A stretch of 64,000 bases of DNA from Mesostigma viride (Eukaryota; Streptophyta; Mesostigmatophyceae; Mesostigmatales; Mesostigmataceae), in contig RPFO01000156.1 of assembly GCA_009746045.1 (NCBI GenBank), positions 776,653 through 840,652 of the forward strand, in the 5' to 3' direction. A program made the position numbers and the translations under genes. This document shows, piece after piece, positions 7,501-25,500 of the stretch. The notes under the pieces were generated by a model that saw only the letters and a program-made list of their open reading frames with translations, was not told the DNA's origin and did not search any database. Numbering within the stretch: the stretch's first letter is position 1; each line of letters opens with the position of its first letter.

Positions 7501-10500
7501 TGGATGTTCAGGGATGCTCGCTCGCATTCGTGCTGCCAGCATTCCCTATGATTCCCTCAGCGTCAGCGCTGAAGCAACCACACACCTGCATCACTGCAAG
7601 AAGGGCACCGCCCATTTCTATGCCGCCACGGAAGTGATGTCGCTGTTGGGGCAGTCACTTTGAGGCTTCTTTTGCCCCTGCAGTTCACTCTTGTGTATGG
7701 ACGCTGACACTCAAGAGAAGAGCTGGGCTCACGTCTTATCTGCAACCAGAGGGCAGGCTGATGCGTAGCCTCCACAAGCTTCATCATAAGCTTTCGATCA
7801 ATTAAACCCATGGGCTTCTTTTTGAAGCTTTATTTTCTGGTCAAAATGTCAAGCAGCTCATATTTTTCTTTTCCTTTTCTATCATAAATTAACACAGTTT
7901 GCTGTAATGTTTGAACAGTTGACACGCCAGTGCTATTTACAGATTACCAGTAGTAGTGACAGATAACGGTAGTAGTACTAGTAACATTGATATTTCTAAA
8001 GTTTTCAGTCTGTTCAACTGACTTTGTTTCCTCCTCTTCCCCCCCCCCCCAGCCTCCCGCACCCGCCCACCCCACCCCCATCCACCGTGGCCTTGCCACA
8101 TGGCCGCGTGGTGTGTTGCGTGAGCGGAATGACCGTTACTATCACAAGTTCGCTAACGCATCCTTTGGATTTGCTCGCTGCCCCCCTTGGCTTCCTGACA
8201 CGGTGTCCCGCTGCGTGCGCGAGCAGAATGACCTGGGCAGCCACGTCTGCTGGCACGTGTACGGCCTGCTGTACCGGTCAGACCGCGACTACCCAGAGGC
8301 CATCAAGTGCTACCGCAACGCGCTGCGCATCGACAAGGAGAACATCCAGATCCTGCGCGACATGTCGCTGTTGCAGGTGAGGGGTTTGGGGGGCGTACGA
8401 GGGGGTGGTTATAAATAGATGGGACGCGCATCTAGACTAGGAGAACATTCAAACCTGGGCAACATGTGGCTGCTGCAGTGGAGGGGGAGGGGGGGGTACT
8501 GGCCGGGCATGTAGGTCTGTAATGCAAGTGAGGGATGGCTTGTGGGGGAGGGGTGGGGTCATGGCTGGGCAGTTGGGGTACACCCATCATCCACCCGCCC
8601 AACCTGCTCCCTACCGGACCCCCCCCCACTTTTACATCTGCCTACTTACCTATGCGTGTGCATGCTTTAATTTTACTATAGCTCTACCTGTTGTCTTTTC
8701 CATGCACATCTACCCCTTGTCTGTCCCAACCACTTCTACCCGTTTTTGCGTTCCACTCACTTCGACCTTTTGTGTCTACCCCACTCCTATCTTTTGTGCA
8801 TTCCACTTACTTCTACCTGTTGTCTACTCCACTCACTTCTACCTGTTGTCGTCCCGTGCACCTCGCCCCCTTGTTCATTCCACCCACCCCTTGACTGGCC
8901 AGCTGCAAATGCGGGACCTGGCTGGGCTGGTCGAGACGCGGCGGCAGTTGCTGACGCTCAAGCCCAACAACCGCAACAACTGGATCGGATTCTCCGTCGC
9001 GCAACACCTCAACGGGAGGTGAGGGCTACACCACACCCTTCCCCCTAGCCCCACACCCTGTCGCTAGACCCGACCACCCAACAGCCACAACAACTGGTTC
9101 GGATTCTCGGTTTCCCAACGCCAGGTGGGGGATGCCGACACTACTTAGAGAAGAGCTCTGTATCACTTCCGTTTATATGGTCTCCCAACTACTACTGTAG
9201 AATGATCTCCCATCTCATCCGCAGAGGCTTGTCGGGGAACATTTCCTTCTTTCGGCCGAAGTGTTTTGAATTTGCTCACCAAGGTCCCTTTTTTTCTATT
9301 CCTTATTCTGTCACCTGCCGTGTCATTACTGCTGCCGCTGCCCCCCGCCGTGTTTCTCTGAGCCAGCTACGAGGTGGCGGCGCTTATCCTGGACGCGTAC
9401 GAGGGCACGATCGAGGAGCTAGCAGAGGGGGAGAAGTACGAGAACAGCGAGATGCTCATGTACAAGGTGAGGGGGGGGGAGAGATGGGCTATAGATAGGT
9501 GTTGTGTCTCTATGCATGTTTGATGTGCCAAGTATGAGGACAGTGAGATGCTCATGTACAAGGTGAGGGGGGGGGAGAGATGGGCTATAGATAGGTGTTG
9601 TGTCTCTATGCATGTTTGATGTGCCAAGTATGAGAACAGTGAGATGCTCATGTACAAGGTGAGGGGGGGGGGGATGGGCTATAGATAGGTGTTGTGTCTC
9701 TATGCATGTTTGATGTGCCAAGTACGAGAACAGTGAGATGCTCATGTACAAGGAGAGCGGGTTGACTGGTCTTAATATAGATATAGATGTGGGGACATAG
9801 GACAGTTTTAAATAGGACTACCAGTTTTTCATAAGAGATAGGTGTGCCTGTATACGATGTGCCAATTATTAGAAGAGGGCTTGCTCATGCCCCCAAGTTG
9901 AGCATGTGACGGATGGAAGCATTTTGTTTTTATCATCTTCTCATGCAAAAGGTGAGGGGGGGTTGTTTGGCAGGTGTTGATAGGATTACGTTTTCTCAGT
10001 CGATGGATTCGCAGGGGGGACGTATTTCCCTAGAAGATATCTGGGTGAGACAATGGCACAAGAAAGTGGGGGCGGTTGCGTTTATGGGGACGGGGGGGCG
10101 AGCTGCATGGTAGGAGACCAGCCGTGTTCTGTTTGCTGCTGGATAGTTTCCCCGAGTAATTAGAAAATATTAGCACAGCTCTGCTCTGCACCACATATGG
10201 CACACGTGGGTGACCATGCATTGCGTGTGACTGTGGACACGACTTTGCGCATGTGCCTATGCGCGCCACCCCCCTGGCCCTGCCCAGGCCATGCTGCTGG
10301 AGGAGGCGGACAAGCTGGACGATGCGCTGGCGCACCTGGACAAGTGTCAGTTGGACATTGTGAGTTACAAGCACACATGCACGAATAGTTGAATCTATTC
10401 TGCAAGTTGCCTAATAAACGGGCAAGTGGAGACAGAGCCACTGGTCAGTCACTGTATGCAAGGCAGGAATCTTTCCAGACAATCGAGTAAAATAAAGAAA

Positions 10501-22500: not shown

Positions 22501-25500
22501 TGTGGGGGGGGGGCTGCTTGGTGTAGAGGGCTCGATAGGCTTTTCTCTGTAGAGCTTGATAGGCTTTACTCATTAAACATTGGTTTCGAAGAGTCAAGCG
22601 GCTGCCCACGCTGCATGTGGGTGCGATAGGCTGTTGTAATAATGATGATTTTACGAATCTTGTGTGCTGTACGTGGACGCTATATGAAGGTAGTTGTGTA
22701 TACCTTCTATGATGAAACTGTGCTCTCGCTGCAGGTAGGGCACGCTTGCTGTGTGCACACACAAGGTAGGGGCGCGATGGGCTGTCTTGTCTGGAGATCG
22801 TGGTGTGTGTTTGGGATCGTGGAAGTGGCTTCTCGCGCTTCATGCGGGGGGGCTTGGGTGTATGTTAACTTCTATGTAGGCTTGGATGCGTGCGTATGGA
22901 TGTGCAGGTAGGTGTGGGGGGACGCATATACACATGTGTTGACTTCTATGCGCAGGCGGAAAGGCTAGGCTTGCACATTTTTATACTAGTTTGTAGGTGG
23001 GGGCACCAGGCTTAGGTGAGTGTGCACGATTACACATATCCAGCCATAGGTTTTAATACTAGTTTGTAGGTGGGGGTACTAGGCTCAGGTGAGTGTACAC
23101 GACTACACATATCCACCCATATGTTTTGATACTCCTGAGGCAGTGTAGTTCTTTGTGACCAGTTGGCTGTTGCGTGCGGCGCTGCTGGTGGGGGGGCAGG
23201 TTTGATGTGCCTAGAGTGTAGGTCATGTATGAGACATAGCGGGTTCTGGTCAGAGACTTACGCGTCACTCCTTCACACCGAGCTGTCCTGTGTACTAGCT
23301 ACGAAGGATTGCTATCCTCTGGGACCCCAGGGTGTCACGGCGTATCAACGGCTCAATGGCTCGTCGTTGTCGTTTTCGAAGCCAAGCCAAGCTACTGCCC
23401 CACATTTGGGGTGTGATGAGTCGGCTTTTCCCCTGTGATGCATGGTTGTTTCGCTAATGGTAATGCCGGTTCTGCCCTCCTTGTGGCCGCACCACCTGGC
23501 GTCCACCCTGCAGGCCGTAAAGCGCATGCTCGCGCTGGATGCGGCACATCCGGACACGCACCGCGCGCTGGTACGTGGTGATGATTATATGTGATGATTA
23601 GTAATGTTATCGCTATGTTGTAATGGTAATAAAACGATAATAATGATAATAATAATAATAATAAAACACCGGCACGTGCCACGTGCATGAGTAGATGGCT
23701 TCCATATCGTGGAAAGCACTACTGCAATTACATATGCTTTGCAAAATCGTAATTACATATGCATTGCGTGGTCGCAATTTATGCGGACGCAGTGGAGCCC
23801 TGCGCTGGTACGTGCCGCGCTGGCTGGTGATTAATGAAGTGATTAATGGAGCATAGACTGGGTGGTGATGGGCAGTCTGGGCAGTGAGGTGGACTGGTAG
23901 AAGTAGGTGTAGAGTTGAAGTAGCTCCCCTATGTGCCACGTGCATGGTAGTAGTGGGTTATCGACAAGGTGTTTTATAAAGTATCGTCAGATGTAGCAGT
24001 GGCAGGTGATGCTACGTCTTGGCCCAGTTTCCGTAGTCGCCGCGCCGATGGAAGCAAAGCTGTGGGTGAGCAACAGCAGAAGCACTATGAAGCCCGTTCC
24101 TGTTGTAACACGGAGACGTGGACAGGCGTATTAACTTTGGTAAATAAACATGGCCTACGTGAGCCTGGCCCGGCCCGGCCCGGCCCGGCCCGGCCCGGCC
24201 CGGCCCGGCCCGGCCCGGCCCGGCCCTGCCCTGCCCTGCCCTGCCCTGCCCTGCCCTGCCCTGCCCTGCCCTGCCCTGCCCTGCCCTGCCCTGCCCTGCC
24301 CTGCCCTGCCCTGCCCTGCCCTGCCCTGCCCTGCCCTGCCCTGCCCTGCCCTGCCCTGCCCTGCCCTGCCCTGCCCCTTGCCCTTGGCTTTCATTTCATT
24401 GCCACATCACCCCATGTGCTTGCGTAATCCACGACATGGGTGCATGCGCTTCATCAGGTCACCTTCTGGGCCAAGGAGGAGTCCCTGGGGGCGTCGCCAG
24501 CACAGGCGACGCTGGTCGACAAAGTCATGGCCCTGGAGCGCGCAGAGTGAGTAGCGGGGCGGATGGCAGGATGTGTGCCAGTCCGCAGGTGGGCAGCTGG
24601 CGAGAGTGTATGATGCATGCTTCGCAAGACATCTAAGTATCCTTTACTATCCTTATTGATGACTATCCTTACTGATGACTATCCTTATTGATGACTATCC
24701 TTATTGATGACCATCCTTATTGATGGCCATCCTTATTGGTGACCATCCTCATTGATGACCATCCTTATTGATGACTATCCTTATTGATGACTATCCTTAC
24801 TGATGACTATCCTTATTGATGACTATCCTTATTGATGACCATCCTTATTGATGGCCATCCTTATTGGTGACCATCCTTATTGATGACTATCCTTATTGAT
24901 GACCATCCTTATTGATGACTATCCTTGTTGATGACTATTGATTTGCGCGCACCGCACACCGCGTGTACAGTTGCCAGCTGGCATGCAGCCCGATGGCTTT
25001 GCAGGGCAAGCGTTTCTAGCACTTTGGTGCACCCTTTGGTGATCCCGTCGTTTGGATGGTAGGGCGGACCTTGACTGGACATTAGCGCGTTGTCCAGTCT
25101 AACGTCTATATGCGAATGATGCCTATTTGGGAATGATGTTTGTTTGGGAATAATGCCTATCCGGGAATGATGTCTCTTTGGGGATGATATCTGTAGGGAA
25201 ACGTTGTCTACTTGGGAATAGTGTATGTTTGGGAATAATGCCTGTCCGGGAATTATGTCTATTTGGGGATGATATCTATAGGGAAACGCTGTCTACTTGG
25301 GAATAGTGTATGTTTGGGAATAATTTGTGCTCAGCGATGGGTGCTTGTTTAGCCGCCCATTTGTTGCCGTGTTGGGCTCCGCTTGCCACCAGCCTGTCTG
25401 CCAATGGATGAACCAGAGGGGCGCAAACCATGCCGAGGGGATATTCTATACTTAATTCTATACTTAATTCTAGTATTCTCTATACGACTATATATAAACT

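Follow-up and report, generated by a model that had tools for sequence, protein, structure and literature searches.

Copies of exon ends and donor sites in the introns of NAA15 and other genes of the green alga Mesostigma viride

How do introns come to begin with repeated copies of the exon that precedes them? This question is raised by NAA15, the gene for the NatA auxiliary subunit, in a 64,000-nucleotide stretch of the Mesostigma viride genome (assembly GCA_009746045.1, contig RPFO01000156.1, here C2:776653-840652), which is referred to as the window. A sequence-only reading of the window had noted that several NAA15 introns start with decaying copies of the preceding exon end and its donor (5' splice site), and had proposed that a mechanism acting at exon-intron junctions lengthens introns in this way. 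The exon-end copies in introns are real, and they are broader than first described. They are quite probably mirage-type tandem duplications, of a kind named after similar repeats in amphioxus, which arise throughout intronic DNA and survive where splicing tolerates them, so that no machinery aimed at junctions would be needed.

Copies of exon ends in NAA15 introns

The model of NAA15 was rebuilt by hand from the sequence, with the donor of exon 23 placed at 27396 (a 3-base adjustment), and its reading frame is open across all 25 exons. The product matches the Pfam family NatA_aux_su with 630.9 bits and human NAA15 (6c95_A) with E=6e-189. Five NatA_aux_su matches were found in the whole assembly (440 Mb in 2243 contigs), every one of them inside this gene. 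An observation of a different kind concerns intron 12, where window positions 16044-16200 hold an uninterrupted array of TC dinucleotides, 136 bp long, and then a run of C of 22 bp.

For each intron, a donor query composed of up to 40 exon bases and 10 intron bases was aligned to the remainder of the same intron. Donor-side copies with a score of at least 24 are present in 10 of the 24 introns (4, 5, 6, 8, 13, 14, 16, 17, 19, and 20), while the reversed query used as control gave a match in intron 16 only. Copies on the acceptor side (3' splice site) occur in three of the 24 introns (3, 9, and 16), compared to none with the reversed query. Significance was estimated after masking of simple repeats, with the remaining 23 NAA15 introns and exon ends as background, a design in which the minimum attainable value is p=0.021. 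This minimum is reached in nine introns (4, 5, 6, 8, 13, 14, 16, 17, and 19), and introns 3 and 20 are marginal, with p=0.043 each. Coordinates of all copies are listed in Table 1.

Table 1. NAA15 and the copies of its exon ends and starts; positions are those of the window. TRF, Tandem Repeats Finder.
Feature	Position	Strand	Evidence or remark
NAA15 (NatA auxiliary subunit) gene	4564..28797	+	25 exons, 24 introns, 902 aa
Marginal copy of exon 3 end and donor, intron 3	6448..6466	+	score 23, p 0.043
Copy of exon 4 end and donor, intron 4	8440..8486	+	score 49
Copy of exon 5 end, intron 5	9093..9122	+	score 30
96-bp tandem array, 3.4 copies, intron 6	9434..9761	+	TRF
Copies of exon 6 end	9530-9572, 9626-9668, 9720-9761; extra short copy 9940-9961	+	
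Partial copy of exon 8, intron 8	11562..11579	+	score 31
Acceptor-side copy, intron 9 end and exon 10 start	12278..12295; second 12195-12215	+	scores 31, 27
25-bp minisatellite, 5.5 copies, unit with exon 13 end and donor	16402..16537	+	TRF
Copy of exon 14 end and donor, intron 14	17516..17557	+	score 34
Six diverged copies of exon 16 end and donor, intron 16	19136..19575	+	alignment
Copies of exon 16 end	19136-19163, 19212-19248, 19300-19340, 19391-19409, 19472-19503, 19543-19575	+	
Copy of exon 17 start with its own CAG acceptor	20079..20115	+	36/37 bases identical; then AG|GTGATT
Copy of exon 17 end and donor, intron 17	20455..20496; weaker 20580-20608	+	scores 44, 26
Four copies of exon 19 end and donor, intron 19	22486-22502, 22595-22621, 22721-22741, 22823-22848	+	top score 39
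Marginal short copy of exon 20 end and donor	23802..23814	+	score 26, p 0.043

The multi-copy echoes claimed at the start of introns 6, 13, and 16 were recovered both by alignment and, for introns 6 and 13, as tandem arrays. In intron 6 the array starts within exon 6, and each unit comprises 33 bp of exon together with the donor. Weaker versions had been claimed in introns 3, 8, and 19; those in 8 and 19 hold, and the one in intron 3 is marginal. The copy in intron 8 corresponds to exon bases -34 to -16 and ends 16 bases short of the junction, and hence the junction itself is not part of it. Acceptor-side events described at exons 10 and 17 are present as well, and a weak additional one is found at exon 4 (score 24). 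The estimate of about six affected introns among 24 proved too low, since introns 4, 5, 14, and 17 had been missed. The statement that introns lengthen by tandem duplications which include the exon end and the 5' splice site, with arrays in three introns and decoy donors left behind, stands.

In NAA15, 117 local repeat pairs were counted, none with both members inside exons. Furthermore, introns with and without copies do not clearly differ in length within this gene (medians 821 and 773 bp, n=9 and 15, respectively).

Ten gene loci and the standing of the junction

The comparison was extended to a genome sample of about 356 kb, comprised of C2 676653-940652 including the window (with 10,000 bases of N), 50 kb of another contig, and seven 6-kb loci with Helicase_C matches. 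The latter were chosen, before repeats were examined, from 91 such matches on the criterion that their matches be split by introns or short open frames. The exon finder was self-trained and seeded with NAA15, hence it is not independent of that gene. It recovered 23 of the 25 NAA15 exons exactly, or 19 of 25 after filtering, and the sole extra exon placed inside NAA15 by the filtered version was a last exon without a stop codon. A later setting, applied to the other genes, gave a wrong first exon of NAA15 and added the copy of exon 17. The main set includes 68 donors from ten gene loci: 24 in the hand-made model of NAA15, 12 in a TAZ/PHD/HAT acetyltransferase gene (named by Pfam from residues 1-1500 of 1725), 3 in a pyridoxal-dependent decarboxylase-type gene, likewise named by Pfam, and 29 in the seven helicase loci. 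At the helicase loci only the helicase exons are anchored by homology, the remaining ones being ab initio predictions, and two of these loci, L027 and L031, look like paralogues.

In this set, 21 of the 68 donor junctions (31%) match their own downstream intron with a score of at least 28, compared to 0.85% for introns of other genes; at p<0.02 the count is 20, against 1.4 expected. Acceptor junctions match the upstream intron in 8 of 68 cases at the same score (0.13% for other genes), or in nine at p<0.02. The difference between donors and acceptors is significant (Fisher p=0.011). Exon ends recur in the following intron more often than other exon segments do, as had been proposed. The exon end alone is found there in 13 of 67 cases, compared to 0/67 for exon starts and 0/34 for exon middles. 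In the upstream intron, exon ends gave 0/68 and exon middles 1/38, the latter at the off-target rate. Only sequence next to the junction recurs, therefore the copying events either include the junction or directly adjoin it. Similar proportions were obtained with 40-bp queries at a score of at least 30: donors 16/68, reversed donors 1/68, acceptors 8/69, exon interior 1/44, and intron interior 97/612.

At p<0.02 the donor rate is 7/24 in NAA15, 6/12 in the acetyltransferase, and 3/3 in helicase locus L032, with 1/3, 2/5, and 1/5 in others. Inspection by eye of the acetyltransferase disclosed six variants of GACACGCGCCAG|GTGGGT in the intron after exon 11, the exon itself counted, and an array of ~46-bp units that includes the exon end in the intron after exon 12.

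We have also addressed the question of whether the junction is special. The proposal of a mechanism acting at exon-intron junctions is unsupported, because duplication is common in the intron interior. A local downstream copy was detected for 17.9% of 1072 interior 50-bp windows (off-target 0.4%), with a per-intron mean of 13.3% (95% confidence interval 9.4-17.5) and at least one such window in 62% of 66 introns. The first 50 intron bases do not form a peak, being duplicated in 10.8% of 65 cases.

A survey of tandem repeats covered 329 kb of chunks, in which overlaps were counted, so that a few pairs enter twice, the copy of exon 17 among these, and chunks with at least 2,000 N were excluded. 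Among 24 local repeat pairs with at least 95% identity, 14 are tandem (length at least 0.8 of the lag), six are shorter than half the lag, and four are in between. At donors, the lag to the closest copy is 65-174 bp in 14 of 16 cases, and 285 and 610 bp in the other two. Templated short insertions were considered as a general mode of copying and rejected, as only two distinct repeats (at least 97% identity, at least 24 bases) are shorter than half their lag: the copy of exon 17 and another one in transposon-like sequence.

Taken as mirage-type duplication, these features suggest the following course. Short tandem duplications, with units of ~25-170 bp where seen at donors, would arise across non-coding DNA, the source probably being replication slippage, unequal exchange, or break repair. 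Selection would remove those inside exons. Duplications across a donor junction would mostly be tolerated, because the first, original donor presumably remains in use and the extra copy merely lengthens the intron. Those across an acceptor junction would be tolerated less often, which some counts support and others do not. The exon copy would then be frozen while intronic copies decay, so that the exon serves as a fixed reference that keeps old duplications readable, and interior duplications of equal age would fade from view. Leftover decoy donors would preferentially be disabled at the T of GT, and an occasional copy may turn into a new exon, perhaps at exon 17.

The strongest alternative holds that tandem duplication has genuine hot spots at 5' splice junctions. 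The underlying process would be tied to transcription, R-loops, or splicing; slippage or repair might, for instance, take place where transcription gives rise to structures close to the 5' splice site. It would make exons keep stamping their ends into the next intron and would drive intron growth. If true, such stamping, together with the disabling of decoys, would be a main source of long green-algal introns and of new mini-exons. The test most favourable to it rotated the local repeats of each gene along that gene (1000 rotations). Donors were spanned in 16 of 68 cases, compared to 6.7 expected, and none of the rotations reached this number. In addition, the exon part of repeats spanning the 16 donors is short (8-52 bp, mean 24) compared to 65 bp if placed at random. 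At least one copy, at exon 5 of the acetyltransferase, extends ~60 bp into the exon by eye, indicating that the 52-bp limit is partly an effect of scoring. The absence of enrichment in the first 50 intron bases also speaks against a hot spot. Finally, where the source is an exon held by selection, copy and source drift apart half as fast as an interior pair does, which should extend the time of detection up to about twofold. By this reasoning, such a frozen source could roughly yield the donor excess. Its prediction is at most about 27-36% of donors, compared to the 31% seen. The same value is predicted for acceptors; the 12% seen is interpreted as a sign that upstream acceptor copies are selected against. 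Overall we consider a junction-linked process unlikely as the driver of the copies, as we do the recurrent stamping of exon ends by hot spots; a modest true donor hot spot may nevertheless exist.

Several results weigh against mirage-type duplication without preference for junctions. The donor excess of the rotation test is removed by the frozen-source argument alone, a reasoned one. In the same test acceptors are not depleted (7/69, compared to 7.0 expected), and outside NAA15 the donor excess persists (9 compared to 3.2), while acceptors reach 6/45 compared to 3.4. For NAA15 alone the counts are 7 donors compared to 3.4 (P=0.012) and 1 acceptor compared to 3.6 (P=0.056 for so few). A repeat-pair test on a looser set of five predicted C2 genes gave 5/46 donors and 4/45 acceptors, without asymmetry; thus neither test shows an acceptor deficit outside NAA15. 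The rate is also uneven, with 0/16 donors in helicase loci L027, L028, L029, and L031, and unverified ab initio genes beside NAA15 yielded 2/29 donors at a score of at least 24 and 0/31 acceptors. In addition, the copy of exon 17 is near-identical, yet its flanks are without significant similarity (p 0.17 and 0.07), and plain tandem duplication predicts otherwise. Either the duplication is old and selection or conversion has preserved its exon part, or this part was inserted in some other way.

Decoy donors and a copy of exon 17

To follow the fate of copied donors, a search anchored solely on exon bases -33 to -4 was made in 22 introns already shown to hold copies, namely the 20 at p<0.02 and NAA15 introns 13 and 14. 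This search gave 29 copies in 16 introns; reversed queries, without the position filter, gave 8. GT is retained in 15 of the 29 copies. The T at +2 is retained in 18, the lowest value among positions -6 to +5 (21-27 of 29 elsewhere), while the exon part of the copies retains 89 of 98 T's. The comparison of the +2 T with exon T's gives Fisher p=0.0006, and that with pooled neighbours 0.022, to be read with the restrictions that the test was picked after the data were seen, that the copies of one array share a common history, and that anchoring on the exon inflates exon identity. These counts hint at selection against decoy donors through loss of the T of GT, as a lead short of proof. Beyond the donor, identity falls from 23/29 at +5 to lower values over +6 to +9 (15, 14, 10, and 19 of 29), as expected where constraint on the source ends.

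The opposite possibility is that selection maintains the echoes because they act as decoy 5' splice sites and aid splicing or U1 binding. Several copies do hold a strong donor match, and the exon end with the donor is better retained than the spacer. For the latter, the constrained source alone is sufficient, and conservation of decoys agrees poorly with a GT in barely half of the copies and with +2 as the least retained position. We regard this explanation as very improbable.

Two further explanations have next to no probability left. Chance similarity, shared donor consensus, or assembly artefact, suggested by the consensus common to exon ends and by the richness of the genome in simple repeats, is already refuted as a full explanation by the contrast between own and other introns after masking of simple repeats, by the position of the window in a 6.97 Mb contig, and by the divergence of donor-spanning pairs to differing degrees (74-96% identity), which is unlike assembly stutter. 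Some algae carry introners, mobile elements that could be considered as a source; such an origin, or that from a dispersed repeat, was rejected, as the same element is not found in many introns, the match of copies to the exon beside them far exceeds that to exons of other genes, and exon 16 with its array, the one array searched, occurs once in the 440 Mb assembly.

The copy of the exon 17 start consists of CAG and the first 34 bases of exon 17, placed behind an AG acceptor. Taken as an exon, positions 20082-20117 (36 nt) would add 12 residues in frame, and the candidate was accepted by the gene finder. In the alignment with human NAA15 the corresponding motif is present once. Judged by its layout, the copy may be a newborn in-frame mini-exon. 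A potato case has a similar layout in the part of the report consulted (PMC4974935). According to the consulted sections on tandem genomic duplication (PMC3443670), a duplication that crosses an exon-intron boundary can yield a mini-exon together with a new intron, and the copy of exon 17 fits this description. Unlike that route of intron gain, most copies in the present sample only lengthen an existing intron.

Neighbouring sequences, known systems and meaning

Other sequences in and near the window were recorded in passing. At 271-1122, a 168-bp tandem repeat is present in about five copies with 91-97% matches, partly overlapped by a minus-strand open reading frame (912-1400). Long tetranucleotide arrays of TCGG, TCAC, TTCG, and ATTC are clustered at 29554-31342. 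Around 32302-32732, a 32-base direct repeat is 100% identical over copies 399 bp apart, in a stretch that appears transposon-like by eye. A large ab initio gene occupies 52518-63973 on the plus strand, with Pfam matches to AAA_5 and other AAA-type ATPases and two P-loop-like motifs seen by eye; we presume that it resembles the RNF213 family. In the C2 block, numbered so that the window is 100001-164000, a protein predicted on the minus strand at 194039-227732 carries repeated cysteine-rich EsV-1-7 motifs (PF19114, 226 bits, five stretches). The motif is known in brown algae, as well as in a virus of these algae.

The closest known counterparts of the NAA15 copies are the mirages of amphioxus, minisatellites that extend across exon-intron boundaries in Adh3, globin, and troponin C genes, and likewise in PGBD5, for which the consulted parts of the reports describe length instability together with normal splicing (PMC3087553; PMC3902484). 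Both systems consist of tandem units that carry an exon end or start with its splice site. In the sample studied here the repeat unit spans the boundary, the copies occur at 5' and 3' boundaries alike (21 and 8 of 68), and the units of 25 and 96 bp lie within the mirage range of 10 to ~160 bp. Diverged copies, decoy splice signals, and a proposed route to new introns or exons are also common to both. In contrast to amphioxus, the host is a green alga, about a third of the donors in ten loci are involved, and older and younger copies stand side by side. A RuBisCO of green-algal type agrees with this host, unless the contigs concerned are foreign: large-subunit matches lie on four contigs and include a protein of 475 residues, for which the best PDB match is 1gk8, a Chlamydomonas entry.

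Tandem repeats concentrated near intron ends have been described in Chlamydomonas and Volvox (PMC3887541). Richness of green-algal introns in tandem repeats, more so near junctions, is thus shared with that survey, which counted repeats and, in the parts consulted, did not ask for exon sequence within the units. In the literature searched, limited in depth and coverage, no description of exon-end copies in introns was found for a green alga. The kind of structure is therefore already known as mirages; the host group, the frequency, and the bias at decoy donors are new here, within that literature. The cause of long introns in Chlamydomonas and its relatives is left open in the consulted part of a further study, which considers the driving mechanism likely ancient (PMC8226300).

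For M. viride, the exon-end echoes allow the growth of introns to be read back, with the exon as a fixed reference for the origin and age of each copy. They are also a natural experiment on how the spliceosome tells the genuine donor from decoys that are nearly the same. A cost of decoy donors is suggested by the bias against the T of GT.

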